The position numbers were made by a program, and so were the translations under genes. A stretch of DNA of 33,618 nt from a virus. The notes below the pieces were generated by a model that saw nothing but the letters and a program-made list of their open reading frames with translations, was not told where the DNA came from and ran no database searches. The DNA is taken from positions 1 through 33,618 of the IMG/VR virus record IMGVR_UViG_3300031576_000217; one strand, given 5' to 3'. Positions 13,444-32,052 of this stretch are shown here, piece by piece (positions within the stretch are counted from its first letter, which is position 1; the number at the start of each line of letters is the position of its first letter).

Positions 13444-13447
13444 GCAA

Positions 13448-15306: not shown

Positions 15307-15624
15307 CTAGGCAGATTCAACACTCTTGAAATTCTGCCCGCAGTCAGAACATTTGTGATAACGAATCCGGTTACTATGCTTCGACGTGACCACCGTGTTT
15401 TTGCTGTCGCACGTCGGGCACTTCACGCGCTGATAGACCACGCCGTTGACCATGCCGCCGTTCGGTTGAGGGTGGAAGCCGACGGTAAATAGCTTCTCGC
15501 AATGGTCGCACTTGAACCGCGCCCACGGCTTTCCGAATCGTGATCCTGCATCGTGCAATTGGACCGCATTACACCCGCACTTCGGGCAGTCAGGGCCAGC
15601 GGCTTTGGTTAATTGCTCGCTCAA
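15307..15624 (-). CDS. Double zinc-ribbon protein (105 aa)
   Basis: Four cysteine pairs are visible: CPKCGC and CDHC in the first half, CPTC and CSDC in the second. They form two ribbons of the C-x2-C / C-x2-C kind. The second ribbon (VKCPTCDSKNTVVTSKHSNR, then RYHKCSDCGQNFKSV) resembles small DNA-binding ribbons such as Ogr/Delta activators or the N-terminal ribbon of transposition regulators. The ATG overlaps the terminase stop (ATGA). It may be a late-gene activator or a packaging accessory. The sequence shows metal binding but does not decide between these. Confidence 0.7.
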   Translation of the reverse strand: MSEQLTKAAGPDCPKCGCNAVQLHDAGSRFGKPWARFKCDHCEKLFTVGFHPQPNGGMVNGVVYQRVKCPTCDSKNTVVTSKHSNRIRYHKCSDCGQNFKSVESA

Positions 15625-17705
15625 CCCTGCATCCTCGCGTACCAGTTGTCGGCGGCAGGGAGCGTTTCGTCCGGCACCGGTTCCTGCTCCGCCTCCTCAA
15701 CCGGCACGTCGGCGATGTCGCGCAGGCTAAAACCAAGCTCATTGCCGGCGGCGAGCGCCATTTTCACGCAGTCGCCCCAGTGGTTTTCGCCAGATTGAAT
15801 CCACTTTTCGACCAACCCGCCACGCTTCGCGTCCCATTCCTTGACGAGTTGATCGCTGCAAAGGTGATTCGAGAGCTTGGCGTGTTCGTTTTTCGTGTCG
15901 GCGGCGAAGAATGTCAGCGAGCCCTTGCGACCTTGCTTGGTGCGCAATCGCTCCTGCATGTAGAGAATCCAGAAATCGGAATTGAAAGTCGTTTCTGGTA
16001 TGCCACGCTTGAAATTCCATTCCCGATACCACTGCATACCGACGATCGGCGTGGATGTACTGACGCGCTTCGGATGGTTGTAGCCTCTGTTGTTTCCCTG
16101 AATCGACTTGCCGCGCCCGCGCCCGCACTGAAAACGACCTCGCAAGCCGCCGCCGGCTGCCTTCGTCGCGGCAGCTACGTCATCCGGCATATAGTTCATG
16201 TCTGTCCACACGCGACCGGGAACGATAACCGACGACGAATCGTAAACGTGGAAGCCTTCAAGCAATCGCTCATCATGTTCGCGCAGGGCGTTGACAATCC
16301 GCGTCGAAAGATCATCTTGCGGCCCGCGGTAGATATCGAAACAACCGTAGGCCGGCACGGTGATTTCACCAGACTCGCGAAACGCGACGGCCGCCCAGTA
16401 GCCAGTCCATTTGCCGATATCGCGACCAACCGCGACGTACATCGTGTCCGGTGGAAGAATCCCACGCGACCAGTCCGTGCGGCGCTTGCGGACAACTTTC
16501 GGATTGAGCGGCTCGTTGTCGGCCAGTGAAGAGACGTACGGCGTCGCAAATGCCTTCTGACACAAGTCGCGTTCCGAGTTTTCACGGTCCAGCGTGCCTT
16601 CCTCAATCTGCGACGCTTCCCACTCTTTAACTGCGGTATCACCAGCATTTAGCAGGCAGTTATGCCAAGCGCTCCAACGGAACCAAAGACGAAGCGTGGG
16701 CGGAAGTGGGCCTTCAATCGCGCCGTCAGTGCCGATCACCTGCCCGTGGTGGATGATTCGAACGTCTCGCAGCGCGGTCCTGCGCTGCGAGTCGTCGATC
16801 CCCATTCCGCATTCGGGGCAAACAAACACGGCCTCATCGAGCACCTGCATCATGCTCTTTGCGTTTTGCCAGCCGCGCAAATGCTCACGCTCGGGAGAAA
16901 TCCACGCTCCGCAATGCGGGCATGGAGAAACTAATTGCGACCGAGAACTGGCGAGCGTGTCGTCATCGTCTCGACCGCGCAGTCGCCACGGCAGATGATC
17001 TTCAATCGTGCCGGTCCCTTCGGCCACAACCAGGCGCCGACGGTCTTTCAGGCTGAACGCACCGAGTCGGCCGATCAATTGACGGTACGCATCGGCCTCT
17101 TCATCGGTGTCCGACTTCGAAGCGCCACTAAATCCAGCCGCCTCGGTGATTCGAAGCCGCGCCGAGGTGTAACCGGCTTTGTTCGTCGCCTGACCACCGC
17201 GACTCATCACTTTGATGTCAACGCCGTTGCCGAGCGTCACCCGATCTTTGACACGACCGCCCTTGGCGCCGGATCCTGACGATGGAATCAGCCATTGCAG
17301 GTCCGGTGAAGCGTCGAACACCGGCCTGAAATCCTTGTCCCACTTGTCGGCGAACATGTCGGCTTCCGGGACGCCAACGATCGGCGACAGCCGCAACTCG
17401 ACAACATCGCGAAGTGTGGGCACAACCAGGGCACCGAAGCTCTTGCTGGCCTGAACTGGTCCGGTGACCGCAACTTCTTTCCAGTATTCGCGGTCTAGTT
17501 CGTCCCACAGAACGCCGATCACTGGTTGCCACTCAGACTTAAACCGCTCGCCGCCGCGGGGGCCGCTTTGGGGCATTGTGATGTACTTTTCGGCGAACTG
17601 GCGGTGGGTCAGCGGTCGCTTGGGCCGTGCCTCCCTGATCAGCCGCGACCACACCAGTTTTCGCGCGGTTGATTTCTTCGTCAGCGCGCTGGAGGCCGTC
17701 ACCAT
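15621..17705 (-). CDS. Terminase large subunit, GpA family
   Basis: The ATPase half holds a degenerate Walker A (VTGPVQASKS) and an acidic Walker B-like ARLRITEAAGFS. The conserved entry FAEKYITMPQSGPRGGERF is typical of lambda gpA/GpA terminases. A central zinc-binding insert has CPHC and CPEC. The nuclease half starts around YVAVGRDIGKWTGYW, with GENHWGDCVKMALAA near the end as a late acidic/His motif. It packages DNA into the prohead and cuts it. The start is placed at ATG 17705 (MVTASSALTKKS). TTG 17738 and ATG 17735 are alternatives. The 5' end overlaps the small-subunit gene by about 170 bases, which is long. Confidence 0.88.
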   Translation of the reverse strand: MVTASSALTKKSTARKLVWSRLIREARPKRPLTHRQFAEKYITMPQSGPRGGERFKSEWQPVIGVLWDELDREYWKEVAVTGPVQASKSFGALVVPTLRDVVELRLSPIVGVPEADMFADKWDKDFRPVFDASPDLQWLIPSSGSGAKGGRVKDRVTLGNGVDIKVMSRGGQATNKAGYTSARLRITEAAGFSGASKSDTDEEADAYRQLIGRLGAFSLKDRRRLVVAEGTGTIEDHLPWRLRGRDDDDTLASSRSQLVSPCPHCGAWISPEREHLRGWQNAKSMMQVLDEAVFVCPECGMGIDDSQRRTALRDVRIIHHGQVIGTDGAIEGPLPPTLRLWFRWSAWHNCLLNAGDTAVKEWEASQIEEGTLDRENSERDLCQKAFATPYVSSLADNEPLNPKVVRKRRTDWSRGILPPDTMYVAVGRDIGKWTGYWAAVAFRESGEITVPAYGCFDIYRGPQDDLSTRIVNALREHDERLLEGFHVYDSSSVIVPGRVWTDMNYMPDDVAAATKAAGGGLRGRFQCGRGRGKSIQGNNRGYNHPKRVSTSTPIVGMQWYREWNFKRGIPETTFNSDFWILYMQERLRTKQGRKGSLTFFAADTKNEHAKLSNHLCSDQLVKEWDAKRGGLVEKWIQSGENHWGDCVKMALAAGNELGFSLRDIADVPVEEAEQEPVPDETLPAADNWYARMQG

Positions 17706-18147
17706 GCTCTCTAATCCACTGTTTTGCAGCGTCATCAATGGCGGCCAGCATGATCTCTTGGCAAGCTGGCGGAAGTTTCTCGATGCCCTTGCGTACCGAA
17801 CCAGCGAACAAATCGACGTCGCGCGTCGCGTCTCGCACGTGTAATAGGATTTCGAGGTCTTTGTGGTAGCGGAGCTCTTCCCGGTTCGCCTTGATTAGCT
17901 TTAGCCGTTCGTCCTGGTCTGGAGGCTTAGCATCGGTCGGGACCTCAAATCGAATGCGGGCGTCGATCCAACCAGGAAAATAAATCCATAACGGTGTGCC
18001 TGGCTTGCCATCGCCGCGGTGTTCGAAGGGCACGCCAAATGATCGATGCATTCGCTGGAATTGGGCGTGCTTGATTCCGAGTCGCGATCGGAGCTCGTCG
18101 GCTCGCATCCATCGCAGGTCGGTTTCTTTGAATTCTTGGCCATCCAT
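17539..18147 (-). CDS. Terminase small subunit, Nu1-like
   Basis: The 202-aa product starts MDGQEFKETDLRWMRADELR, an N-terminal winged-helix-like DNA-binding region with RSRLGIKHAQFQRMHRSFGV. A LKLIKANREELRYHKDLEI helix follows, and then a GSVRKGIEKLPPACQE helix, both typical of Nu1-like subunits. The C-terminus is basic and proline-rich (KVHHNAPKRPPRRRAV) and lies over the start of the large subunit. It should bind the packaging start site and recruit the large subunit. The gene begins after a 234-base AT-richer gap that may hold its promoter. Confidence 0.8.
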   Translation of the reverse strand: MDGQEFKETDLRWMRADELRSRLGIKHAQFQRMHRSFGVPFEHRGDGKPGTPLWIYFPGWIDARIRFEVPTDAKPPDQDERLKLIKANREELRYHKDLEILLHVRDATRDVDLFAGSVRKGIEKLPPACQEIMLAAIDDAAKQWIREHGDGLQRADEEINRAKTGVVAADQGGTAQATADPPPVRRKVHHNAPKRPPRRRAV

Positions 18148-18381: not shown

Positions 18382-19524
18382 TCAATCGTCATCGCACAAC
18401 ACATCAAGCGCCAACTTCAAGACCTGACCAACGAACGGAACGACGTCGATCGTGATGGTCGTCGTGTCGAGGTCTTCGGCCTGAGTCGCATCGATAACGA
18501 TGGACACGTACTTACCGTGCATCCCGATGTTGACAGTGAATTCACCGCTGCTGCTCAGGCCATTCAACACATTCTGAATGTTGCTGGTCAACTGTTTGGT
18601 GCAGTCGACCCACACTTGGCTGATCTCGCCTGGCACAATACGCAACGCGGGGAACGCTTTGACCACACCATCAGCCCGCGAGCCAAGTTTGGCCGTGCGA
18701 GCTGGGACTGGCTCCTGGTTGTGCACCTGTGCAACCGAGCCAGCTAAAGCCGTCGTTGAATCGACAAGCGTCACGCGGGATAGGTGCCCGCTGGCGTTGA
18801 TGCCCAGCGACCGGAAGTTGGGCGGAACGGCCATGTCTTTAATCGCATAAGTCGCCGCGTCGGTGATCGTCCAATTCGGCGCGCTGTCCACCGTCACAGC
18901 CAGGCGACTAGCGCTTACATAGGTCGAGGTGACAATGGTTCGTTGCGTCAGCCGGCCACCTTCGCGGAGCACGATCGTTGCGCCCACGAGGTCGACACCG
19001 CCGGCGACGAGGCCGCTGCCCGTCCAATTCAGGGTGTAATTGGTCTGAGTGGTGACGTCTTCGATCCCGCCCGCGTTTAGAAGCGTGCCGTAACCATCGC
19101 CGTTGAAGTAGGCTGCGGCGTTGGCTCCCGTGAACGCGATGCCGCCGAACTGCGTGGCGTCCACTTGCAAATAGTCAGTGCCAGCAGCCGCGAACAGGGA
19201 ATCGTAAATGTTCGCCGGCACTATGTAGAAATCCGCCCACACGGGTAAATTCGTCGTCGCGTCCACGAATTGCGCGCGGAGCGTCCCCACCGTGCCCGTG
19301 TCCGTCGCATTGAGCGTGACGCGGTAGTTTCCGTAGCTGTCGTAGACGCTCGCCGTAACCGTGGCCGCACGCACTGCCATCGCAGCGCCGTTCTTACTGA
19401 GCTTGATGCCTGTGGTGGCGTGGTCCAACGCGCCGGCCAGACCGATCTGCAGCGTCACCCCGTCCACTTCATCCACAAATGGACCGAACGAAATCACCGC
19501 ACTTGTGGATTGTTTTAGAAACAT
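18382..19524 (-). CDS. Virion fibre or receptor-binding-like protein (380 aa)
   Basis: It starts MFLKQSTSAVISFGPFVDEV, overlapping the phosphoesterase gene by 10 bases. The N-terminal 120 residues (GVTLQIGLAGALDHATTGIK, GTLRAQFVDATTNLPVWADF) follow the pattern of many phage tail-fibre and baseplate-attached proteins. Further on are a repetitive beta-rich middle with Thr/Val/Gly and a C-terminal block (FPALRIVPGEISQVWVDCTK). No membrane segment or catalytic motif is seen. A surface or host-recognition role is inferred from composition and from its companion LamG protein. It is encoded before the terminase genes, away from the tail genes. Confidence 0.6.
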   Translation of the reverse strand: MFLKQSTSAVISFGPFVDEVDGVTLQIGLAGALDHATTGIKLSKNGAAMAVRAATVTASVYDSYGNYRVTLNATDTGTVGTLRAQFVDATTNLPVWADFYIVPANIYDSLFAAAGTDYLQVDATQFGGIAFTGANAAAYFNGDGYGTLLNAGGIEDVTTQTNYTLNWTGSGLVAGGVDLVGATIVLREGGRLTQRTIVTSTYVSASRLAVTVDSAPNWTITDAATYAIKDMAVPPNFRSLGINASGHLSRVTLVDSTTALAGSVAQVHNQEPVPARTAKLGSRADGVVKAFPALRIVPGEISQVWVDCTKQLTSNIQNVLNGLSSSGEFTVNIGMHGKYVSIVIDATQAEDLDTTTITIDVVPFVGQVLKLALDVLCDDD

Positions 19525-21230
19525 GGCTGCCTCATCCTTCGCATGTGCATTTTGGGAGCCGCTGCGGGAAACGGCCCTGTTTCCAAGCTCGTCGAGAAAA
19601 CGTCAGAGACACCAACATTGGGAAATTCACGCACGGCGGCCAGCGTGCCGTAGCCGCTCATTGTCGCGCCGCCGCTGGTGAATTCGCAGACCATCAGAAA
19701 CCCATTGCCGTCGCCGGCGCTTCCCAGGCCGGTCCGCTCCTGGTTGTTGACGACGAACGCCGACACGTCGTTGCCGTACGCGCCAGTCTGCGCCAAGTGC
19801 CCGGTCCGCGCTTCCGACGAGCTGTTGATGAAAGCGTGGCCGCACCAAATAGCGACCAGGTTCGGAATGTACTGGTAATAATTCGCCCACATATCGCTCG
19901 GCACGTGGTACGCCTCAGCTTCGCTGGCGTAGTAGTTGTTCGGATTGGTGCTGATTAGCGCCGCGCCGAGCGACGTGTCTTGCAGCACGTAATCGTGCCT
20001 CACCAAAAAAACGCGCTTGGTCGGGTACTGCCGGGCCTTGGCCTGGGCCCACTGGGCCTGGGCGATCGTGGGGCCGAACGGCTGCGTGATAAACAGGTCG
20101 GTTTGCGTGAAGCCGAGGTCCAAAAAGAACGAGTACGCGTACTGGTTGTAACCGCCGCCCGGCATCTGCTCGTTCAATTCGTTCTTGCCTGTAATGAGCA
20201 ACATTGGCAGGTTGCCGCTATCGTCCATTTCGGTGACGGTCCGCGTGGGCGCGTCCGCCCCGCTCTGGTCGCCGTCCAAATCGTGATTGCCCGGCACGAG
20301 CGTGACAAACAGGTTATTGATGACGATATCCAGGCCGGTCCGATGCTTGACGAACGTGCTCGTGCCGCCGCCATCGGCATAGCCGCGTTCGGTGTGATCG
20401 CCTAAATGAATTGCCGCCTTCAGATTCAGCACGCTGCGGTAGTCCTCGATCCACTGATAGAGTGCGTTGGTGGATGCCTGCGTGTAGGTGAGGTTTTGCG
20501 TGTCGCCGATGAGCACCACCGAGGGCGACTGCGCCGGGAACGGATAGACGCCGCCCGTCGTGTGCAGGAACAGCAACTTGCGCTCATCCGCCGTCAGAGA
20601 ACGCGACCACAGCATGGCCGGTCCCATGCGTCCGTCGTAACGATTCGCGACAGCGCCGTTGTTGAGGTGGCAGCCCAGCGTGACGTTGGCCATCGAATTG
20701 TGGAGGCCCGACGAATAGGCCGTGGAATTCTCGGCCCCGCCGTTGACCTGGATAGAGATATTCGCGCCGTCATACCGGGCGATGACGAGACACCAGCGAT
20801 TGGTTATCACCACGCCGAAGTTGTCGGCGACGACCGACGTTGGCGCAATCCCGTCGCTGCTCACCGCGAAATAGAGTTTGTTCGTCGAACCCGTGATGCC
20901 GATGGTCCAAGATCGCTGGTTGGTAGAGCCGCCGAAGTCGTACTGCCCGATGATTCCCTCGTCCACGCTTAACTGCTCGAACTTGATCCACACGGCGACC
21001 GTCATGTTCGAGCCGCTCAAATTGAATGAGCTGTTGTCGGCGATGAAAAGATGCCCCTGGTCCGCGCCCGCGTTGCGCTCGAAGTCGCGCGCCGTGGAAG
21101 ACACCAGGCCGGTGCCAGATTTTACAGAGCCGCTCACCGACAACGTATTGCTGCCGTGGCTATCGACAGCGCTGGCGTCAGCGGCTTCCGTGAGTGGCCA
21201 GTACGAAATAAGGTTATCGGTGAAGGCCAC
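19515..21230 (-). CDS. LamG-like plus metallophosphoesterase protein (571 aa)
   Basis: The start is GTG 21230, overlapping the upstream TAG (TAGTG) with a perfect GGAGG site. The much longer ATG-started frame only shadows the upstream gene. Residues about 1-210 are a LamG/concanavalin-type lectin domain: LISYWPLTEAADASAVDSHG, NMTVAVWIKFEQLSVDEGII, and the closing GRMGPAMLWSRSLTADERKL. The C-terminal part is a calcineurin-type phosphoesterase with metal motifs: VVLIGDTQ, AIHLGDHTERG, LVPGNHDLDGD, VRHDY and AIWCGHAF. No signal peptide is seen, so it is probably a virion component. It could bind host glycans and hydrolyse a phosphodiester in surface polymers, but the substrate is unknown. Confidence 0.8.
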   Translation of the reverse strand: MAFTDNLISYWPLTEAADASAVDSHGSNTLSVSGSVKSGTGLVSSTARDFERNAGADQGHLFIADNSSFNLSGSNMTVAVWIKFEQLSVDEGIIGQYDFGGSTNQRSWTIGITGSTNKLYFAVSSDGIAPTSVVADNFGVVITNRWCLVIARYDGANISIQVNGGAENSTAYSSGLHNSMANVTLGCHLNNGAVANRYDGRMGPAMLWSRSLTADERKLLFLHTTGGVYPFPAQSPSVVLIGDTQNLTYTQASTNALYQWIEDYRSVLNLKAAIHLGDHTERGYADGGGTSTFVKHRTGLDIVINNLFVTLVPGNHDLDGDQSGADAPTRTVTEMDDSGNLPMLLITGKNELNEQMPGGGYNQYAYSFFLDLGFTQTDLFITQPFGPTIAQAQWAQAKARQYPTKRVFLVRHDYVLQDTSLGAALISTNPNNYYASEAEAYHVPSDMWANYYQYIPNLVAIWCGHAFINSSSEARTGHLAQTGAYGNDVSAFVVNNQERTGLGSAGDGNGFLMVCEFTSGGATMSGYGTLAAVREFPNVGVSDVFSTSLETGPFPAAAPKMHMRRMRQPCF

Positions 21231-22234
21231 TAATTCGCCTCCCACACGTAGTTTGCCTTGAGGCTCCGCTCGATGTTGATGCGGACCCTGGCCTTGTTCA
21301 GCAGGATCGGGTCGCCTTTGATTTCTGCGGTGTCGCTGGCGATTCCGCGAATATGCACGACCGGTCGCGACCATTCGTAGGCGCACAGTTCTTCGAGCGG
21401 CGAGCCCACCGCATCGCCGCCGTCCATATCGACCCGCAGGCGAAAGAAGCCGTTGTTCTTGTTCGGATAAGTTTTCTTTTCGGCGTCGCCCAGCAACAAC
21501 CAGCGGTCCCAACTGCCGTTGGTACGGATGTCGGCCACGATCTTGCCGCCCTGCTTGGCCCAGATAACCGCCTTGCCGTTGCCTGCGGCGTAGAGATCGA
21601 AGCGATGATCCACCGACTGGTTATCATCGGTGATGATGGAGTAATCGACCGTATGCGTCACGAGTTCACGGGTGCGGGTATGGTCGCAGTGCCCGCCGCC
21701 GTCGCCGTTGTCGGCGTGCAGGATGCCGATCTCGCCGTTCGTCACAGTGACGCGATCGAAGCTGGTCATGCCGACCGGCCACTCCGCGCCCCTCTGCGTA
21801 ATCTCGACGATCGGGCCGGCGCTCATGGCCGTGTTGTGCTGGCCGGGCCACACGATGCAACCGGCTAGGCCGATGTCGGCGACGCGGAACCGCGAACGGC
21901 GAATCCTCAGCAACGGCTCGGCGTTGTCGCGCGGGCGGGCGTCGATGATCTGCGTGACCGCCACCCACGGAGCGCTCCACGCCGAATAAGGCTTGGCGAA
22001 GTCCGGCGCGCCGCTCCCCAGCAGGGCGCCGCCGACGCCGCTGCCTGCGTCCATCATCGTGTGGGCGTAAAACACGCCCACCGGCAGAAGCTTGGCCGCC
22101 CGAATATGTTCCACAATGGCAGGCCCGGAATCCTTCGTCCGGTCGTTGTGGTACAGCTCGGCCGCCTGTGCGGCATTGATTGCCGCCAGCCCCGTGAGGA
22201 GAATGCAGCTAGTGAGGCGTACGATGGAATTCAT
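21230..22234 (-). CDS. Secreted beta-rich protein with Sec signal peptide (334 aa)
   Basis: It begins MNSIVRLTSCILLTGLAAIN, then AAQA and a likely signal peptidase site before AELYHN. The mature part has repeating beta segments with Asp/Asn turns (ITDDNQSVDHRFDLYAAGNG, GGGHCDHTRTRELVTHTVDY), which suggest a right-handed beta-helix. The fold is not certain and no polysaccharide-lyase active site is identified. A phage protein exported by the host Sec system could act in the envelope, or could be displayed or secreted. Its end overlaps the LamG-phosphoesterase gene. The start has no clear ribosome binding site. Confidence 0.7.
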   Translation of the reverse strand: MNSIVRLTSCILLTGLAAINAAQAAELYHNDRTKDSGPAIVEHIRAAKLLPVGVFYAHTMMDAGSGVGGALLGSGAPDFAKPYSAWSAPWVAVTQIIDARPRDNAEPLLRIRRSRFRVADIGLAGCIVWPGQHNTAMSAGPIVEITQRGAEWPVGMTSFDRVTVTNGEIGILHADNGDGGGHCDHTRTRELVTHTVDYSIITDDNQSVDHRFDLYAAGNGKAVIWAKQGGKIVADIRTNGSWDRWLLLGDAEKKTYPNKNNGFFRLRVDMDGGDAVGSPLEELCAYEWSRPVVHIRGIASDTAEIKGDPILLNKARVRINIERSLKANYVWEAN

Positions 22235-22325
22235 GGAATGGGCACTGTGGTGGGCCGTGGTGATTCTGGCGTGGCCGCTGGCCGGGCTGGCGATCGGTTA
22301 TCTGTTGGGGTGGCCTCCGGGCTGA
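22224..22325 (+). CDS. Plus-strand membrane micropeptide (33 aa)
   Basis: This short ORF reads MEFMEWALWWAVVILAWPLA, then GLAIGYLLGWPPG: a single strongly hydrophobic helix with tryptophans at both ends. A GAGG motif lies 6 bases before the ATG at 22224. A second in-frame ATG is at 22233. The reverse strand over the same bases carries no credible protein. It fills the 105-base gap between the holin-like gene and the signal-peptide gene, overlapping the latter by 11 bases. Antiholin or small membrane regulator are possible roles. Its size and lack of homology keep confidence moderate. Confidence 0.4.
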   Translation: MEFMEWALWWAVVILAWPLAGLAIGYLLGWPPG

Positions 22326-22339
22326 CTCTCAGTGGCGTT

Positions 22340-22567
22340 TCATTCTTTCGTCCGCTTCAAAATCTCTTTGATGTCCGTCCGCACTTCGCTGAACCCGGTG
22401 CCAATGGTGTGTTCGATGTTTTGGACTTTAGCTTCCAGGATGACGATGCGATTGGCCCACACCAACAGCGCGGCGAACATCGCGACGGCATGGATGGCGA
22501 TGAGGCCGATGAATTTCCACCATTCGCTGCTGGCGAACTTCGTGTTGCCATTTTCGTCTCTGCCCAT
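22340..22567 (-). CDS. Holin-like/XhlA-like membrane protein (75 aa)
   Basis: The start is taken as ATG 22567 (MGRDENGNTKFASSEWWKFI). A TTG ten codons upstream is less likely. One membrane helix is present (FIGLIAIHAVAMFAALLVWA), followed by an amphipathic coiled-coil-type helix (VQNIEHTIGTGFSEVRTDIK) and a basic end. A single helix with a charged coil at the C-terminus is the layout of XhlA-type haemolysin/holin accessory proteins. It lies in the exported-enzyme cassette where lysis genes are expected. Role inferred from layout. Confidence 0.65.
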   Translation of the reverse strand: MGRDENGNTKFASSEWWKFIGLIAIHAVAMFAALLVWANRIVILEAKVQNIEHTIGTGFSEVRTDIKEILKRTKE

Positions 22568-22586
22568 CGCATGGAAGACCCTTGTG

Positions 22587-22853
22587 CTAAAATCCAAACC
22601 CGAATACTCGCAGCACGTCGCTCGGATTGAGCCCGATCATTTCGGCGATTCGTCGCAGTTCCTGTTCCAAGTGTGGCCCGCTGGTTTCCTCGTCGTCACA
22701 CCAACAGTTGGCCGATACGGTCCACTGGCCGCGCTCGTACACGGCGATGATCTTCCACTCGTTGACGTTGCGGAGCGTGCGACAAATGTTCTCGTCCTCA
22801 CGTTCTGTCTTTCGAGTTGTCCCGCAACCACTGATAAACGCCCCGGCCGACAA
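22587..22853 (-). CDS. Small cysteine-containing protein between holin-like genes (88 aa)
   Basis: The first codon of this frame is TTG at 22853, and its first 19 or so codons overlap the upstream holin-like gene. A start further in is possible, for example the GTG in front of YERGQWTVSA, which would give about 51 aa. The confident core is NEWKIIAVYERGQWTVSANC and WCDDEETSGPHLEQELRRIA. It ends with MIGLNPSDVLRVFGFGF. No family is recognised. FISGCG near the N-terminus looks like a lipobox, but there is no proper signal sequence ahead of it, so I do not call a lipoprotein. A soluble partner of the membrane proteins is possible. Confidence 0.55.
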   Translation of the reverse strand: MSAGAFISGCGTTRKTEREDENICRTLRNVNEWKIIAVYERGQWTVSANCWCDDEETSGPHLEQELRRIAEMIGLNPSDVLRVFGFGF

Positions 22854-23025
22854 TCACGGCTGCGCCCGCCAGCGCCGCGCGCCAGTTGGCAGAGACCGTC
22901 AGCACGCCGACCAGCTCCGCACCATTCGCGATCACGACCGTCAGCAGCACGGGGCCGAGCCAGTCGATGACGCCCTGGGCCTCGAAGGCGCCGAACGCGC
23001 CAGCTTTGTTGCCGAAGAATCTCAT
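22798..23025 (-). CDS. Small two-helix membrane protein, candidate holin (75 aa)
   Basis: The start is ATG 23025 (MRFFGNKAGAFGAFEAQGVI) with GGAGG four bases upstream, overlapping the caspase stop (ATGA). The longer upstream frame is a shadow of the caspase gene. Two hydrophobic segments are visible, GVIDWLGPVLLTVVIANGAE and WRAALAGAAVIVGRGVYQWL, with a basic C-terminus (DNSKDRT). Size, two helices and a charged tail are typical of class II holins. Position next to exported enzymes supports this. Confidence 0.7.
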   Translation of the reverse strand: MRFFGNKAGAFGAFEAQGVIDWLGPVLLTVVIANGAELVGVLTVSANWRAALAGAAVIVGRGVYQWLRDNSKDRT

Positions 23026-23735
23026 GCCACCTCCGCAAATGATTGGAGCGTGCGCCGCTTCATCGCGTTGTCTGTGTAGAAACACGGATGTTGATTCCAA
23101 CGATCGTTCGGCAGCATCTTCTGGATCCGCTTGTGCAGCGCTGGCAGCGTGGTGTTCGTCTGCCGCTCCGCGAACGCTTCGAGGAAGGTCAGCGTCATGG
23201 CCCCGCCCATGCCCGTGCTGAATGCCACTTCTCCCGCCCGGCAGGCCGCATACGTGGCGTTGGGCCGCTTCACGCCGCGCGTCGGCAGTTCGGCCGTGTG
23301 TTTGAAGCAATGCTTCACCGCGACCGTGCGGGCCTTTCCGTGTCCGCGGGGCAGGCCGCCAGAGAAACAACAGTCGGCCAAGCTGGCCAGCATCGAGCCG
23401 GCCGCACGCTTGGTAAGCTCGGCCCGCAGCTCGAAGTCGTAAATCAATTCCAGGCCGTGGCACACGATGGCTTCGACGCGCTTGCCCTTGATCGTGTCGA
23501 ATGTGCCGTGACCACTGAAATACAGCAGGCCCAAGTCGCCCTTGCCAAGCGTGGCCAGAAACTTGCGGACCGCCGTGAAGATGCTGTTGCGCGTGGCCTT
23601 CTCGGCAAGCAAACACTTGGCGGACGCGCAGAACGGCTCGAACGCTTCCGCGATGTTCGTGGCATCCAATTCGCAGTCGGGCAGCTCGCAGCTTTCGCCG
23701 CGGTTGTTGCTCGCGATGGCCAGGAGGTGGATCAT
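23022..23735 (-). CDS. Caspase-like cysteine protease (peptidase C14), 237 aa
   Basis: It starts MIHLLAIASNNRGESCELPD, the short first strand and loop of the caspase fold, with a DATNIAEAF helix. The catalytic histidine is in LLYFSGHGTF (His76). The catalytic cysteine is in LASLADCCFSGG (Cys123, in the D-x-C-x-S-G pattern). Both dyad residues are intact and in the right order and spacing. No signal peptide, membrane segment or repeat domain is seen, so it should be cytoplasmic unless processed otherwise. Metacaspase/orthocaspase proteins are common in bacteria but unusual in phages. The start overlaps the nuclease-fold gene stop (ATGA). The substrate is unknown. Confidence 0.85.
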   Translation of the reverse strand: MIHLLAIASNNRGESCELPDCELDATNIAEAFEPFCASAKCLLAEKATRNSIFTAVRKFLATLGKGDLGLLYFSGHGTFDTIKGKRVEAIVCHGLELIYDFELRAELTKRAAGSMLASLADCCFSGGLPRGHGKARTVAVKHCFKHTAELPTRGVKRPNATYAACRAGEVAFSTGMGGAMTLTFLEAFAERQTNTTLPALHKRIQKMLPNDRWNQHPCFYTDNAMKRRTLQSFAEVA

Positions 23736-24250
23736 TCGCCGAGCCTCCCGCCTTTGGTCGTGCTGGCAAACTTCATGCGGACCTGCGTCTGGCCCAACGA
23801 TTGGCCGTTGACGACGACTTCCGACAGCAGCCGTTCGAGCGACAGATAATCAATCACGCGATTCGATTCGACGGGCAGCCGGATGAGACCGCTCTTGCCG
23901 AGCGCCAGCGATTCCAGATTTTTCTTGCTGGCGATGCCGCTGCGATAGGCCGCCTCGCGTTGGCTGACGTTGGCGATGCTCGATTGACGACGCGTCTCAT
24001 CGGCCCAACAGCCGCGGCCGTGCGCCCCCAATAGCCGAATGCGGACGATGATCGACTTCACGGCCAGCGTGCCGCCGCCGACCAGCGGCAGTTCCCAATC
24101 GACCGGCACGGCCGCGTCGAGCGTGTCGCCATCGACGATGCTCACCACCTCGCAGGTAATCTCGACGGTCCGCAATATGGGCGGATCCTTGGCGGGTACT
24201 GGGCCCGCCAAGGCCGCCGCGGTCACGAAGGTAGCGAACCATCGAAGCAT
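23732..24250 (-). CDS. Exported SNase-like protein, catalytic site partly changed (172 aa)
   Basis: Start ATG 24250: MLRWFATFVTAAALAGPVPA is a plausible signal peptide, with the mature part starting near KDPPILRT. VVSIVDGDTLDA matches the staphylococcal nuclease IDGDT block. VKSIIVRIRLLGAHGRGCWA corresponds to its RLLLVDTPE block, but with AHG where the nuclease has D-T-P and no glutamate there. VESNRVIDYLSLERLL matches the GR-containing region. Two key acidic residues therefore look replaced. It may be a binding or structural SNase fold rather than an active nuclease, or the alignment may be off. The upstream extension of the same frame shadows another gene. Confidence 0.65.
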   Translation of the reverse strand: MLRWFATFVTAAALAGPVPAKDPPILRTVEITCEVVSIVDGDTLDAAVPVDWELPLVGGGTLAVKSIIVRIRLLGAHGRGCWADETRRQSSIANVSQREAAYRSGIASKKNLESLALGKSGLIRLPVESNRVIDYLSLERLLSEVVVNGQSLGQTQVRMKFASTTKGGRLGE

Positions 24251-24252
24251 GC

Positions 24253-25173
24253 TTAGTCGGGAGCGCGGCCGCCCGTCGTGACGTTTTTCTTGATGGGAAT
24301 TGCCAGCGGGTCGCCGCCAGCAACGCGATCCTCGATTCCGGGGAGCGTGCTTTCCCAATCGCCTTCACCCTCGAGGTACGTGACCGGCCAGCGGGCCGCA
24401 AACTTGAGGGCCGTGGTGTATTGCACGCCGCGGATGCGCGATAAGTCATTTTCCGTCGGCCACCACGATAGCGCCGGCCGCTCCATCGTCTGCTCATGCG
24501 ATGGAATTACGTCTTGCGGCTTATAGTTGGCGCTCGAGAACTTTTCGGGGGCAATCACGAAATCCGGATTAGTCCGAATCTCTTCGGCGTCGTACCCGAA
24601 ATACTTCGTGGCAGCACGCAGGAACGCACCACGGATATAGCTTTCGATGACGTCTGCCATCGGACCGCTCACGCGATCGATATACTCGTTCGACGAGTGC
24701 TGCATGATCTCGCCGAGCAAGTTCAGCCCCCACGCCGCTTGGTCAAGACAATCCTCTTGGCGCACGCGCGAGCCGAAAAACGGAATCGGGAACACCAGGA
24801 AAGTCTTACGCTGGTTGCGCAGGTGGGCCGGGTCGATGTCCAGTGTCGTGCCCGGGTCGATGCGGTAGGCTCGCACCATCGAGCGCAGTAGCACCAGCGC
24901 CTTCTGCCATTCCCACCACCAATCCTTGTGTGGCGGTGCCGAGAATTGCACGTCGACGCGGTGCATCAGGTCGAACAGCGTGGCCCCGATGAGCTTGTGC
25001 ATCTTGAAGATCGTGGTGTTGTTGGTCCACGTCTTGCCCTGTCCGTTCGGCATCCCGTAGCCGGCCATGCCCCAGCGACCGTCTTTGAACCACAGGATTT
25101 CGTCGGTTTGCCAGATCTCGCGCAGTTCATCGGGCGTTCCGGCTTCGTTCGGGCTAACTTCTGCGGCCGTCAT
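24253..25173 (-). CDS. Unrecognised 306-aa protein in the secretome cassette
   Basis: The start MTAAEVSPNEAGTPDELREI has an AGGAG site 6 bases upstream, just past the end of the out-of-frame extension. It is soluble with no signal peptide. A tryptophan-rich stretch (APPHKDWWWEWQKALVLLRS) and several helical segments (GPMADVIESYIRGAFLRAAT, FGYDAEEIRTNPDF) stand out. It ends GGDPLAIPIKKNVTTGG. I do not recognise a family or active-site motif. It sits between the trypsin-like and SNase-like genes, so its job may be linked to theirs. Confidence 0.75.
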   Translation of the reverse strand: MTAAEVSPNEAGTPDELREIWQTDEILWFKDGRWGMAGYGMPNGQGKTWTNNTTIFKMHKLIGATLFDLMHRVDVQFSAPPHKDWWWEWQKALVLLRSMVRAYRIDPGTTLDIDPAHLRNQRKTFLVFPIPFFGSRVRQEDCLDQAAWGLNLLGEIMQHSSNEYIDRVSGPMADVIESYIRGAFLRAATKYFGYDAEEIRTNPDFVIAPEKFSSANYKPQDVIPSHEQTMERPALSWWPTENDLSRIRGVQYTTALKFAARWPVTYLEGEGDWESTLPGIEDRVAGGDPLAIPIKKNVTTGGRAPD

Positions 25174-25182
25174 GTTCAGCTC

Positions 25183-25467
25183 CTAACACCGTAATGTGCC
25201 GGTCGGGTCGCCTGAAAGCGCCAACTCTTTGATGTCTTCCACGTCGCGGAAAAGCTCGACCGCACGCACGGGTTTGTTGGGGTTATGGGCTAAGTATCTT
25301 TCTTTCGCCACGCGCCACGCTTTCGAGTCGGCGCTGTTTGGAATTTGGACTTCGACGTATTCGGTAATTCGCTCAATGCGTGGTTCTGGCTGCGGTTGAT
25401 TCGGCTCTGGCAGTTTGGGTTGCGGACGCTCGACCGTCTTAGGCGGCTGCTCTCCGAAAGGGCGCGG
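25183..25467 (-). CDS. Out-of-frame extension of the trypsin-like gene (94 codons), no usual start
   Basis: I translated this frame by hand. It opens after a TGA at 25470-25468 inside the end of the protease gene and closes with TAG at 25185-25183. It encodes PRPFGEQPPKTVERPQPKLP, then a proline-rich stretch (EPNQPQPEPRIER) and a charged domain containing ADSKAWRVAKERYLAHNPNK and VELFRDVEDIKELALSGDPT. No ATG, GTG or TTG occurs before a GTG at 25311, which would give only 42 aa. The frame is +1 relative to the protease. CCC TTT at 25462-25457 is one possible +1 slip site. It may be a programmed frameshift, a mutated longer gene or a sequencing error. Confidence 0.55.
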   Translation of the reverse strand, partial: PRPFGEQPPKTVERPQPKLPEPNQPQPEPRIERITEYVEVQIPNSADSKAWRVAKERYLAHNPNKPVRAVELFRDVEDIKELALSGDPTGTLRC

Positions 25468-26686
25468 TCACGGACCCCAGGCCGCGGTCTTCGAGTTTTC
25501 CGGTCAATCGTTTCTTGAGTCGCCGCGTCGCCAGCCACGCGCCTAAGCCTGCGACGGCCCCGATCGGCCCGAGCGCTGACGTTCCGGCGCCCAGCCACCA
25601 CTTGAGCGATGACGCGCCGCTGACCACGTTGCCGGCTCGCTCGGCCAGCGATGGGTCTGGTGGCACTTGCTGGTTGGGATCGGGAATCTGTTGCGCGATC
25701 GGCGGTTGCCGCGGCGGCGCCAGCCCGCCCGGTTGTTCGGCCCGCGGCGGATCATTGGCCAGCGGCGGGGCTTGGAGGTGCGGCGGGGCTGGCAGCGGCG
25801 GTTGCTTGCTAGGATCGGGAATCTCAATCTGGGGTCGCTGGCCAGAGGACCACGGCATTTGATCGCGGCGCGGAATGATCGCGCCGGGCCGACCTGGCAA
25901 AATGCCGTCAAGTAGTCCCTGGACGTAATGCAGCGGACAGCCGAACGCGGCACGTTGACCGCGATTGTAGGCGGTGCTTCCCACCGTGACGCAACTGTGA
26001 ATGACGCCAACCAAGCGACCGCTGCGGTCGAGAATAGGGCCGCCGCTCTCACCGGGAATGGCCTGACCCTTGAATTCATAAGCACCATGATTATCCTGGC
26101 CTTTGTAAATTGTTGAGCGAATTCGCAATCGGCCGTTGTCGCCGCCTGGGAAACCGGCCAGATAATAGGTTTCGCCGCGCACCGCTCCGGCTTGCGCGAG
26201 CTCGAATGCGTCGCTGCGCGGTCCGCCGCGGAGCTTGGCAATCGAGCAGTCGCTACCGCCTGAATCGAGCGGCGGGTCAATGGCCACGATGTCGGCAACT
26301 TCGGTCGTGCGGCCGTCGCTAAAGATAATCAGCACGGGGTCGCCCTTGCCGCTCATGCCGTGGGCGCAGGAAGCGATGTAGCTCTTGTCGCCGCCGACGT
26401 CGATGATCGCGCCGGACAGATAGCAGAACTCCCCATTGCCGATCATGTTGCGTATCCGCACGATCCGCGCGTCGCACCACGGCGGCAGCGGCTGTTGCGG
26501 CGCCACGTAGGGTTGGCCCGGCTGTTGCGGCTGCGGAGCCTGTTGGGTCTGCGGCGCTTGCCAGTCGCTGCCGTCGCAGTATTGCTCGCATTGGCCGGTC
26601 TGCGGATTGATGCGCCATTCGCATTTAGCGCGGGCCACCGAGCACGGCCACAGCAGAATCACGGCGATGATTGCCAGAACACGCAT
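25439..26686 (-). CDS. Exported trypsin-like serine protease with C-terminal membrane segment (415 aa)
   Basis: A signal peptide is clear (MRVLAIIAVILLWPCSVARA, cut near KCEW). A Gln/Pro-rich linker follows. The chymotrypsin-fold triad is visible: His109 in SYIASCAHGMS, Asp146 in GGSDCSIAKL and Ser224 in IPGESGGPILD. AAFGCPLHYVQGLLDG closes the domain. A long Pro-rich linker (about residues 270-345) leads to a hydrophobic segment (WLGAGTSALGPIGAVAGLGA), then ATRRLKKRLTGK. It probably stays membrane-anchored with the protease domain outside. An envelope-degrading or host-protein-cleaving function is inference. The end is followed by the out-of-frame extension. Confidence 0.85.
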   Translation of the reverse strand: MRVLAIIAVILLWPCSVARAKCEWRINPQTGQCEQYCDGSDWQAPQTQQAPQPQQPGQPYVAPQQPLPPWCDARIVRIRNMIGNGEFCYLSGAIIDVGGDKSYIASCAHGMSGKGDPVLIIFSDGRTTEVADIVAIDPPLDSGGSDCSIAKLRGGPRSDAFELAQAGAVRGETYYLAGFPGGDNGRLRIRSTIYKGQDNHGAYEFKGQAIPGESGGPILDRSGRLVGVIHSCVTVGSTAYNRGQRAAFGCPLHYVQGLLDGILPGRPGAIIPRRDQMPWSSGQRPQIEIPDPSKQPPLPAPPHLQAPPLANDPPRAEQPGGLAPPRQPPIAQQIPDPNQQVPPDPSLAERAGNVVSGASSLKWWLGAGTSALGPIGAVAGLGAWLATRRLKKRLTGKLEDRGLGSVTAPFRRAAA

Positions 26687-27120
26687 TAAAGCTCAATGCA
26701 TAAAATGATTGGACAGAACAAACCGCGCACCGCGCTGCGCGTCGCCGCGCCCACGGTCGTGACTCGCGGAATCTTCGCCAACCGCCGCAGTTGGCCGGGC
26801 GTGGCCATGCCGACGATTCGCGCCCCGCTATCGAAGTCGCCGCGTGGCGTAGAAAGCACGTAGCAGTACGTAGGGAATCGCGCGACGCGGTAATAGGCTG
26901 CACCTTGCGGCCAGTCCTTGGCGTTGTAAGTGCGCAGGTCGATGCCTTCGGCGCGGAGGCCCGCTTCTACCGGTTCCATCGCCGCGCAGGGCTGGCAGTT
27001 GTCGGTATGGAAGGCGAGGAGGTAGTTGGCGGCTCGGCAATTCGCCACGCAGCACAGCAGGAACGCGACGACCGCGATGGCAATCAGCAGCAGCCATTCG
27101 TATTTGCTCGTGTGGGTCAT
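26686..27120 (-). CDS. Membrane-anchored thioredoxin-fold protein with CQPC (144 aa)
   Basis: The ATG at 27120 overlaps the stop of the DUF1353 gene (ATGA). The N-terminus WLLLIAIAVVAFLLCCVANC is a signal peptide or membrane anchor. The thioredoxin-like part starts at NYLLAFHTDNCQPCAAMEPV, with the CxxC CQPC (Cys42, Cys45). The segment VARFPTYCYVLSTPRGDFDS matches the cis-proline strand region of the fold. It could keep exported, cysteine-containing phage proteins in the right redox state, or reduce host envelope disulfides. Phage thioredoxins are usually cytoplasmic, so the anchor is unusual. Confidence 0.75.
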   Translation of the reverse strand: MTHTSKYEWLLLIAIAVVAFLLCCVANCRAANYLLAFHTDNCQPCAAMEPVEAGLRAEGIDLRTYNAKDWPQGAAYYRVARFPTYCYVLSTPRGDFDSGARIVGMATPGQLRRLAKIPRVTTVGAATRSAVRGLFCPIILCIEL

Positions 27121-27557
27121 GTTGGGTCTCGCTTAAACCACGTTCGGATTTCGCGCCAATAGGACCACGCGCGAACCGCAACGTGCATTAGCTTGGCGCG
27201 CACGGGCCCGATCCCCGAATGCCTGAGCACGGCCACGAACACGGCGTCGGAAATCACGCGGTCGAGTATCTGGGGGTTGTCCGTTAGAAAATCGTGAATC
27301 AAGGCCGCGAGTATCGTGCGGTCGAGGGGGGAGAAGCCGCGCACGATCCACAGCAGGCGCGGGATCGACGCTCCGTCGAAATAGTAAGCGGCGGGAATCC
27401 GCAGGTCGATCATGCCGCGCTGGTAGCGTATCTCGCAGAGCGTCACGAACGGTTTGCCGCCGCCGTTCATGCGGTGATTCACGGCGATCGGAAAGGCCAA
27501 CTCGGCCGTGATGTTCACGGGGCCGGAGAGAATTTCCTTCAGGTGTCCCTTGGGCAT
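27117..27557 (-). CDS. DUF1353 family protein (146 aa)
   Basis: The start MPKGHLKEILSGPVNITAEL has GGAG six bases upstream. The DUF1353 landmarks are visible: IPAAYYFDGASIPRLLWIVR, then AALIHDFLTDNP, and a helical end (AKLMHVAVRAWSYW). The family is common in tailed phages near lysis or tail-module genes, but its function is not established. There is no signal peptide. The histidine/aspartate positions in HDFL suggest metal binding, as in the family generally. An overlapping reading frame with a hydrophobic start precedes it. Confidence 0.85.
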   Translation of the reverse strand: MPKGHLKEILSGPVNITAELAFPIAVNHRMNGGGKPFVTLCEIRYQRGMIDLRIPAAYYFDGASIPRLLWIVRGFSPLDRTILAALIHDFLTDNPQILDRVISDAVFVAVLRHSGIGPVRAKLMHVAVRAWSYWREIRTWFKRDPT

Positions 27558-28772: not shown

Positions 28773-29435
28773 TCACGCGGCAGCTAACAGTTGCAAAAGT
28801 TTGTCGGCCATCTCGCACCATGCGGCGGTGCGCGCCGTTTTCCAGATTGCGCTTCTGCGCGCAGCATCAGCAGCATCAGCAGCAGCAGCAGCAGCATAAG
28901 CATAAGCAGCATCAGCAGCAGCAGCATATGCAGCATAAGCAGCAGTACGCGCCTTGCGCCAATCTTTGATTGACGGCTTCGCGCCATCGAGCCATTTTCG
29001 GTACAGTCCAGCAACGCCTTCGATACTCTCGCGGTTGCGGTCGGTGATTCGCAGCATGTTGCTGTCGGTCAGCAGCCATAACGCGAACTTCGGCCAGACC
29101 ATCGACAGGTCCGAGCCAACTTGGATTGCCGATGCAACCTGCCACGGCCAATCCAAGTAACGATCTTCCGGCAGGGCCTCGAAAATCGAATCTTCTAGCC
29201 GCGCGATAACGCGCGGGATTCCAAGATGCGTTTCGTAAACTCCGTGATCGTTGGTCGGCAGCGAGAGGCCGCGACGTTGGTTGAGTGAGTGAATCGAGCA
29301 CCCGATCGCGCACCCAGTGAACTTGCCATTCGTCTTGCCGTAATGGCCCTTCACGATTGCATCTGATTCGCGGTGAATGCGGAGTTCTTCCACGATGTCG
29401 ACTTTCAACTGAGGGTCTCCTAAGAACGCTTTCAT
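28773..29435 (-). CDS. Alanine-rich phage protein with triplet repeats (220 aa)
   Basis: The start is ATG 29435 (MKAFLGDPQLKVDIVEELRI) with AAGGA upstream. The longer frame shadows other genes. The N-terminal 110 residues, with GKFTGCAIGCSIHSLNQRRG and YLDWPWQVASAIQVGSDLSM, belong to a widespread phage/prophage hypothetical family of unknown function that I know by its KGCAVGCTIHS-like block. After GLYRKWLDGAKPSIKDWRKA comes a low-complexity run (AAYAAAADAAYAYAAAAAA), encoded by the triplet repeats. The end ADKLLQLLAAA is helical. Ala-rich tails of varying length are common in this family. Confidence 0.8.
   Translation of the reverse strand: MKAFLGDPQLKVDIVEELRIHRESDAIVKGHYGKTNGKFTGCAIGCSIHSLNQRRGLSLPTNDHGVYETHLGIPRVIARLEDSIFEALPEDRYLDWPWQVASAIQVGSDLSMVWPKFALWLLTDSNMLRITDRNRESIEGVAGLYRKWLDGAKPSIKDWRKARTAAYAAYAAAADAAYAYAAAAAADAADAARRSAIWKTARTAAWCEMADKLLQLLAAA
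28859..28946. repeat. AGC/CAT-type trinucleotide repeat tract
   Basis: Blocks of AGC and CAT/CATA triplets repeat almost without interruption, such as CAGCAGCAGCAGCAGCAT. It encodes the alanine/tyrosine/aspartate-rich part of the protein above on the minus strand. Length changes by whole triplets would keep the frame, so it may vary in copy number. It is not a CRISPR array: there are no unique spacers. Confidence 0.8.
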
Positions 29436-29457
29436 GCTGTCTTCCTTGTGGTTAGGG

Positions 29458-30408
29458 TTAGGCGACGGATTCGAGTTCCGCAAGCAACCAGTCGCGCAGC
29501 ATCGGCGATTCGATCCTGCCCTTCGCCGGAAGCATGTGTACCAGCGCCGGGCAGACGCGCTCGGCAAGTTCTTTCTGTGCGGGCTTCTTCATCGCGTCCA
29601 ACTGCTGACCGAATTCGCGCTCGCGCCGTTCGCGCTCCGCTCTGTCCGCCGCTCGCTGAATTTCCGCTGTTGCCTTTTCGGCGCGGAGTTTTTTTGTACT
29701 TTCGAGAGCCGCTTGTCGGGCCGCTTCGCGCTTCACGTCCGGCGACTCCGGCGGCCACAGCGAATCGAACGACTGGTCGGGCTTGAACCGCAGTAGCCGT
29801 TCGTACAAGGCACCAGGCCCCCACGCCGGCTGACGTGTCCGCCAGTGCTCGATGAGGTTCCGAACCTGCGTCACGGAGCAACCAGCGGCCTCTGCGATGC
29901 CGCGAGCCTCCCCCGCCTTGGCCACCCCGTACCGAACCAAATCCTCCTCCACCGCCGCCCAGGAGGTGCTTGGTGGTGGTGGTGGTGGTGGTGGTGGTGA
30001 TGTGTGCTTGGTGATGTGTGGTGGGTGCTTGGTTGGAGCGCTTTGTGGAATTTCCTGAGAATCCTGTGAATTGCGGCCTTTCAAACCGCCTAGTTTTTGT
30101 TGATAACTTCGCCAATTCATTAGAGTTACGAAATCGCCATTGATTTCGATAGCTCCGCATTTTTGCGCCCGATGCAACATGCCATCGACCGCACGCCCTG
30201 TGAGTCGATGGGCCTTCTGGAATACACTTTTGCGGATGGACACCTTGCCACCGCGCCCTTTTCTCTTCGCGTCGCACATCAGGCAAACCCAGGCGAGCCT
30301 TTCGCCCATCGTGGACTCTTCCTCAATGCCATACTGAGGCAGCGAGTCCCACATTTCGGACTCGTCCCAATCCACTGCGAGTGCCAACCACGGCGCGATT
30401 ACGCTCAT
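29458..30408 (-). CDS. DnaD-like replication protein with polyproline hinge (316 aa)
   Basis: MSVIAPWLALAVDWDESEMW is the usual beginning of phage replisome organisers of the DnaD/winged-helix type. HRLTGRAVDGMLHRAQKCGA and VTLMNWRSYQQ follow as the winged-helix and its edge strand. Nine prolines in SPPPPPPPPPSTS separate it from a second helical domain (YGVAKAGEARGIAEAAGCSV, then TQVRNLIEHWRT), a helix-turn-helix-like unit. A charged coiled coil (EIQRAADRAERERREREFGQ) and a final helix close it. It probably loads a helicase or binds the phage origin. GGAGG lies 11 bases before the start. Origin sequence not located. Confidence 0.75.
   Translation of the reverse strand: MSVIAPWLALAVDWDESEMWDSLPQYGIEEESTMGERLAWVCLMCDAKRKGRGGKVSIRKSVFQKAHRLTGRAVDGMLHRAQKCGAIEINGDFVTLMNWRSYQQKLGGLKGRNSQDSQEIPQSAPTKHPPHITKHTSPPPPPPPPPSTSWAAVEEDLVRYGVAKAGEARGIAEAAGCSVTQVRNLIEHWRTRQPAWGPGALYERLLRFKPDQSFDSLWPPESPDVKREAARQAALESTKKLRAEKATAEIQRAADRAERERREREFGQQLDAMKKPAQKELAERVCPALVHMLPAKGRIESPMLRDWLLAELESVA
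29972..29998. repeat. (GGT)9 microsatellite encoding polyproline
   Basis: Nine uninterrupted GGT triplets run from 29972 to 29998. On the coding strand they read ACC units in frame as CCA/CCP codons, giving nine prolines. The sequence is likely to vary by triplets through slippage, which would change the hinge length without a frameshift. Confidence 0.85.
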
Positions 30409-31367: not shown

Positions 31368-31820
31368 TCACTCCGTAACTTCACGAATGGATACAGCACA
31401 ATGCGGCTGCTCATCGCCGCTGGCTCGCCACTTCTCAATCGTTCCGGCGTACACTTGGCAGTCGTCTACGATGATCGTTCCTTGCAGCGCATCTAAAACG
31501 GATTTTATGAGGTTATCGATGTCGGGCTTTTCAACGTGCGGGTAGCGCGGCATCGGCTTGGACTTCCAGACCTTTGACGAATGGCGCGGGAACACGAACA
31601 GCACGTCGATGCGGACGGGTCCGGCGATGGGCGCTCCGTTGTAGACCTCCGCCGCCAGTCGCACCGTTGCCTTAAACGCATGGATCGGGTGCGGGCGTTT
31701 GCCGTCGCCCGTGCCGAGCGTCGTGGGCGTGTAGACGCGGGCCTTACCACCGAACGCCGTCGCCTTAGTGCGCGGCTGGGCCACGGGTACAGCGGGTACG
31801 GTGAATTTAATGATCGCCAC
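31368..31820 (-). CDS. rusA: RusA family Holliday junction resolvase (150 aa)
   Basis: The start is GTG 31820 (MAIIKFTVPAVPVAQPRTKA). The N-terminal extension in the same frame shadows the upstream gene. The family pattern is strong: VPVAQPRTKA, then ARVYTP, then the core KPDIDNLIKSVLDALQGTI with VDDCQVYAGTIEKW. The metal-binding acids are Asp100, Asp102 and Asp119/Asp120. RusA enzymes are homodimers that cut Holliday junctions and here probably resolve intermediates made by the exonuclease-annealase pair to the right. Length (150 aa) is slightly longer than E. coli RusA. Confidence 0.85.
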   Translation of the reverse strand: MAIIKFTVPAVPVAQPRTKATAFGGKARVYTPTTLGTGDGKRPHPIHAFKATVRLAAEVYNGAPIAGPVRIDVLFVFPRHSSKVWKSKPMPRYPHVEKPDIDNLIKSVLDALQGTIIVDDCQVYAGTIEKWRASGDEQPHCAVSIREVTE

Positions 31821-31866
31821 AGTCCGTTTTCCTTGGCCGCGCCGCAGCGCGTCGAGATTCCTAATG

Positions 31867-32052
31867 TCAGTTTTTCTTGACGTGCTCCAGGCAATGCTGC
31901 GCCGCGTTGAATGCACTCGTGGCGTCTCGTTTGGCGTCGTGGTTGCCGTCGTACTCGGCCATTGCGGAGAATAGCCGGCGTGCTTTTTCGATGAGGTTCA
32001 GGTCAGCGGCCGTGTAGCTGAATTTCTTGCTGACTGGGTTGAACGTGGGCAT
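31867..32052 (-). CDS. Small paralogue 2 (61 aa)
   Basis: MPTFNPVSKKFSYTAADLNL then IEKARRLFSAMAEYDGN: an all-helical small protein after an acidic/basic start. A GGAGG lies 4 bases before the ATG. It resembles the product at 32272-32478 over its first 32 residues (MP-x-F, KK, Y-x-A, D, I-x-KA, L-x2-AMA). A 220-base gap separates the two. It probably arose by duplication. Function is unknown. Confidence 0.65.
   Translation of the reverse strand: MPTFNPVSKKFSYTAADLNLIEKARRLFSAMAEYDGNHDAKRDATSAFNAAQHCLEHVKKN

Follow-up and report, generated by a model that had tools for sequence, protein, structure and literature searches.

The window analysed here, 33,618 nucleotides in length, is the whole of IMG/VR record IMGVR_UViG_3300031576_000217, assigned to an uncultured bacterial virus, and since the record is without end repeats its genome is probably incomplete, a fragment. 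As can be followed in Table 1, the gene order runs from recombination genes through DUF1353, thioredoxin-like, trypsin-like and caspase genes to a holin-like gene and a gene for a protein with a transmembrane segment and coiled coil (TM-coil), and from there to the terminase. Bacterial genomes scanned with the terminase profile and a caspase profile gave no relative that would point to a host or to the nearest bacterial caspase; Planctomycetota are a suspected candidate host, going by the kind of small secreted proteins that sister phages encode.

Table 1. Features of the window, with the basis of each assignment or a remark.
Position	Strand	Feature	Basis or remark
9423-10703	-	426-aa protein with C-terminal methyltransferase domain	lies among tail/capsid genes
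11135-12856	-	Major capsid protein	
12853-13662	-	Head maturation protease	
13448-14974	-	Portal	
15621-17738	-	Terminase large subunit	phage side of the operon
19515-21260	-	LamG and calcineurin-like phosphoesterase protein	before terminase; 25% similar in sister phages L004/L006
21230-22234	-	334-aa protein, hydrophobic signal-like N-terminus, no assigned function	ORF list, N-terminus
22340-22567	-	Short TM plus coiled-coil-like protein	TM/coil prediction
22587-22853	-	88-aa ORF, same operon, no assigned function	TTG start, start uncertain
22798-23025	-	Small membrane protein, 75 aa, holin-like	size, TM segment/hydropathy, position
23022-23735	-	Caspase-family (Peptidase_C14) protease, 237 aa	ATG start; Pfam, PDB, alignments, model
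23732-24250	-	172-aa protein, signal-like N-terminus, no assigned function	overlap with caspase start
24253-25173	-	306-aa protein, no assigned function	ORF list
25439-26686	-	Trypsin-like serine protease, signal-like N-terminus	Trypsin_2, E 5e-14; also weak PADLOC match to RT-linked protease
26686-27120	-	Thioredoxin-like protein, membrane-anchored	weak match, below cut-off
27117-27557	-	DUF1353 protein	E 1.4e-15
28852-28950		GCAGCATCA-type repeat units within ORF 28773-29567	encode Ala/Asp/Tyr-rich tract
31368-31916	-	RusA resolvase	upstream recombination gene
32491-33156	-	YqaJ-like exonuclease	upstream recombination gene

Membership of the central gene product in the caspase (Peptidase C14) family is firm and, in our judgement, close to certain. 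The Pfam Peptidase_C14 profile (PF00656) matched residues 13-221 with E 3.5e-16 and 60 bits, above the curated cut-off of 21.4 bits, and a sequence search of the PDB returned GSU0716 (3bij, E 6e-10) as the nearest solved structure. The PADLOC caspase model matched with E 1.6e-7, and the NCBIfam model for EACC1-associated caspases with E 2.6e-7, far below the cut-off of that model. An AlphaFold model made from five viral sequences reached low to moderate confidence (mean pLDDT only 55, pTM 0.61); the top Foldseek matches of this model were caspase-family chains, the best being 3bij at E 4e-6, and VIA-align superposed it on MALT1 with Z 12.8 over 166 residues at an rmsd of 3.7. The earlier note had described the ORF as a caspase-like protease with an intact dyad, and this description holds in every particular: His76 lies within YFSGHG and Cys123 within DCCFSGG, in the right order and context, and both residues align with the dyad of all relatives aligned, the viral ones included. 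Scans of the protein for a second domain and for a transmembrane segment found neither, in agreement with the suggestion in the same note of a free protease with no sensor domain.

Cleavage preference can be approached through the S1 pocket, which in the metacaspase TbMCA2 is formed by Cys92, Asp95, Ser156 and Asp211 (PMC4357240). The corresponding residues of the window enzyme are Cys21, Asp24, Ser74 and Asp121, of which the first two share the spacing of Cys92 and Asp95 in the sequence alignment while Ser74 and Asp121 stand two residues before the catalytic His and Cys, respectively. Orthocaspases cut after positively charged residues (PMC6426788), and from its TbMCA2-equivalent S1 residues the window caspase is predicted to do the same, cleaving after Arg or Lys and not after Asp. 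Enzymatic activity with this specificity is likewise a prediction from sequence. The loop between the dyad residues is short and does not contain the DGxDE stretch present in L009, L011 and L015, on account of which a dependence on calcium appears doubtful.

The caspase gene belongs to the phage and is embedded in an operon. It shares 4 nt (ATGA) with the end of the preceding 172-aa gene and likewise 4 nt (ATGA) with the beginning of the 75-aa gene that follows; its codon usage, compared with that of the structural genes, gave the best fit among the genes scored and a far better one than its own shifted frames. Recombination genes lie upstream and terminase, portal, head protease and capsid genes downstream, all on one strand. 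An origin from a bacterial chromosomal island, a possibility that the earlier note had reserved against its claim of a phage-encoded protease, is rejected because of these phage genes on both sides, the ATGA overlaps and the phage-like codon usage.

Related viral loci, about 40 in number, were gathered with terminase and capsid profiles. Their structural block is conserved, identities reaching 63% for the capsid and 57% for the terminase, and almost nothing corresponding to 18-33 kb of the window was recovered from them. A search for PF00656 in 34 related records gave no match, a result that for the most part says little, since nearly all of these records have only a short stretch upstream of the terminase. 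The only related record covering an arm comparable to that of the caspase is G008 (49 kb), from whose arm the caspase is absent; between its replication and terminase genes lie a secreted subtilase (E 2e-29), a CAP-domain protein and an alpha/beta hydrolase. If G008 is read as circularly permuted, matches to the LydA holin (E 0.005) and to an Rz-like spanin (E 0.002), both weak, come next, at the place that corresponds to the holin-like and TM-coil genes of the window. The arm is therefore variable between the two phages and protease-bearing in both, with different protease families, and the caspase is not a core gene of the group. Phages commonly employ dedicated maturation proteases, and processing of virion proteins had been named as one possibility for the caspase in the earlier note; however, this phage has a head maturation protease of its own adjoining the capsid gene and conserved in sisters in which no caspase was detected, and the caspase gene is not part of the conserved structural block, which leaves such a role very unlikely.

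A second caspase of the same compact kind was found in an unrelated phage. A compact-caspase pattern scan of viral contigs yielded 19 stretches, of which only that in L074 (IMGVR_UViG_3300038379_000388, a 40-kb contig) encodes a compact caspase; scans of viral contigs with the window caspase and with its 306-aa neighbour as single-protein queries gave no matches. L074 differs from the window phage in carrying a P22-like portal, capsid and terminase together with a serine integrase, and in possessing an endolysin. Its caspase (255 aa, with SGHG and DSCFSGG) is 30% identical to the window caspase over 210 residues (E 5e-20), and the two have in common a compact single domain and the motifs ELPDCxLDA, SGHG, D(C/S)CFSGG and AAC..E.A.STG.GGA. 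In a small tree they pair with support of 83/83, the join lying between two long branches. The L074 gene stands in a cassette on one strand that comprises TM-coil, holin-like, Gly-zipper lipoprotein-like, caspase, DUF1353 and endolysin (phrog_465, E 5e-7) genes. Both phages thus have DUF1353 nearby and lysis-type neighbours around the caspase, although caspase and DUF1353 overlap by 4 nt in L074 and lie 3.4 kb apart in the window; TM-coil genes occupy the equivalent place in L074 and in the sister phages.

It is likely that the window caspase is a functional gene of the phage. That it might be a host-derived passenger useless to the phage, or an artefact of binning or assembly, would accord with its absence from G008, the one sister record with an arm to compare, but one contig bears phage genes on either side of it, its start and stop overlap those of its neighbours, its codon usage matches the phage, and the catalytic and S1 residues are retained at about 30% identity to the L074 copy; we regard this explanation as quite improbable. 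The 4-nt overlap with the upstream 172-aa gene might instead point to a partner that the caspase cleaves, or to a nuclease that it activates as in canu, caspase-nuclease pairs being on record (PMC12799240). Against such a partnership, Pfam, NCBIfam and PDB searches with the 172-aa protein found no nuclease or other family and its structural model is too poor to judge, a signal-like N-terminus is present on this protein and none on the caspase, and the gene upstream of the caspase in L074 is a different one, so that the idea is hardly to be expected to hold. A VDGDT motif noticed by eye had suggested a staphylococcal nuclease, a candidate that was dropped for want of any Pfam, NCBIfam or PDB match and in view of a model pLDDT of 36.

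The gene block around the caspase looks like a lysis module. The 75-aa protein is regarded as holin-like from its size, hydropathy and position, profile searches having given no match, and the 88-aa ORF was considered as a spanin lipoprotein and dropped since no signal segment is found at its start. Of eight annotated phages viewed, six (phiPMW, NrS-3, FNU4, phiRTG5, gmqsjt-1 and TDDLMA, but not Shewanella phage 1/44 and nickie) had an annotated endolysin, lysozyme, holin or autolysin gene no more than 2.5 kb away from DUF1353. Of the ORFs that were tested in the window, itself a fragment, none matched an endolysin. A caspase on a Paraburkholderia plasmid (L008/L079) lies 2.2 kb away from an N-acetylmuramidase but has transposases around it, and was not counted as support. 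What matters most in this context is the overlap of the caspase with the holin-like gene, the presence of DUF1353 in the arm, and the related caspase within the L074 lysis cassette.

Taken together, these observations point to a compact single-domain orthocaspase that would be translated with a phage lysis-type module. It would most likely be a cytosolic cysteine endopeptidase that cleaves behind Arg or Lys, would presumably be made late, alongside the holin-like membrane protein, and may help or time lysis of the host cell, either by cleaving host proteins (of the envelope, or inhibitors) or by processing a lysis partner. The lysis role is the best-supported one because related caspases occur in lysis-type surroundings in two unrelated phages; the association is seen in these two phages only, a small sample, and we put forward as a tentative reading, whose chances fall slightly short of even, that the enzyme is a cytosolic orthocaspase of Arg/Lys type, produced along with the lysis module and at work around the time of lysis. 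The broader proposal that a caspase translated together with the holin serves as a lysis protein in some tailed phages is rather unlikely. Such an enzyme might be kept in the cytosol until the membrane opens, or be active just before, and would be needed to break protein structures or inhibitors beyond the reach of peptidoglycan hydrolases; if so, it would be the phage counterpart of the executioner caspases of programmed cell death.

The same arm could also be read in terms of host takeover or counter-defence, with a free orthocaspase cleaving host regulators or defence proteins from an accessory position and taking no part in lysis. A location that varies among sister phages, as is typical of accessory genes, a free cytosolic protease with no partner domain, and a second, trypsin-like protease within the arm are all consistent with this. 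Translational coupling of the caspase to a holin-like gene speaks against it, however, as does the L074 homologue, whose place within a lysis cassette would not be expected of an unrelated takeover function, and we consider takeover possible but rather unlikely.

A further role to be weighed is that of a defence or superinfection-exclusion effector akin to the caspases of bacterial immunity (TIR-caspase, canu, CRISPR-linked and gasdermin-linked). Caspase effectors of bacteria are established (PMC12799240), the window protein matches the PADLOC caspase model as given above, and virus record L014 holds a caspase beside a ThsB-type TIR gene. In the window, on the other hand, the neighbouring ORFs that were tested showed no recognisable TIR, sensor, STAND, nuclease or Ig/TPR partner, the protein is of a single domain, and a separate transcription unit is not indicated. 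A defence function is thus improbable, and for superinfection exclusion, which the earlier note had also raised, no evidence was found.

The statement of the earlier note that caspases rarely occur in phages broadly holds. A caspase search at E 0.01 across 50,697 phage records gave no match, but caspases are present in five further IMG/VR records and in one 485-kb phage (LR745208), so that a caspase in a phage is rare, not new. The dyad is intact in those of L014, L015/L016, L017 and LR745208, which differ from the window caspase in being more distant in sequence and in standing in other neighbourhoods. In L014 (9570-10945) a ThsB-type TIR gene directly precedes the caspase gene near tail genes, and the pair looks like a TIR-caspase immune pair on a prophage. 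In the related records L016 (9830-10576) and L015 (3682-4428) the caspase lies, by eye, between UDP-galactopyranose-mutase-like (Glf-like) and PhoH-like genes. The uncultured phage LR745208 (L012:4971-5771) encodes a 266-aa metacaspase-like protein with an intact dyad, its gene close to that of an apparent vWA-domain protein.

Caspases are familiar above all from programmed cell death, and the bacterial members of the family have been studied chiefly as cell-death and anti-phage effectors. That two unrelated phages carry intact caspases within lysis-type modules suggests that viruses, too, may have adopted the family as a means of ending the cell, and the caspase with its lysis-type neighbours constitutes a concrete, testable gene set. 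In the literature searched, no paper paired a caspase with a phage lysis cassette, and one near precedent appeared, the eight phage-related metacaspase operons noted in Clostridium botulinum in 2012 (PMC3501461).

Among known systems, the caspase-like proteins of giant viruses (cedratvirus, pithovirus and others in BFVD) likewise represent a virus-encoded caspase fold but belong to eukaryotic viruses, and no tailed-phage protein named caspase was among the best 50 BFVD matches. The canu and TIR-caspase (Thoeris) systems resemble the window enzyme in that a caspase serves in the cytosol as an effector of the conflict between phage and bacterium; no MBL-fold nuclease family as in canu was seen in the neighbouring ORFs and no Ig-like or TPR domain in the 237-aa caspase, and none of the ORFs tested from 21230 to 27557 matched a Thoeris-type TIR, in contrast to L014. 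With the bacterial orthocaspases and metacaspases (MEROPS C14, PF00656) it has in common the caspase fold, the His-Cys dyad, the acidic S1 residues and a single p20-p10-like domain, the nearest relatives found being only about 30% identical. It differs from bacterial orthocaspases in its short loop with no recognisable DGxDE-type acidic stretch, in having no accessory domain, and in being encoded by a phage within a lysis-type operon, so that a known enzyme family is met here in what is apparently an undescribed setting.
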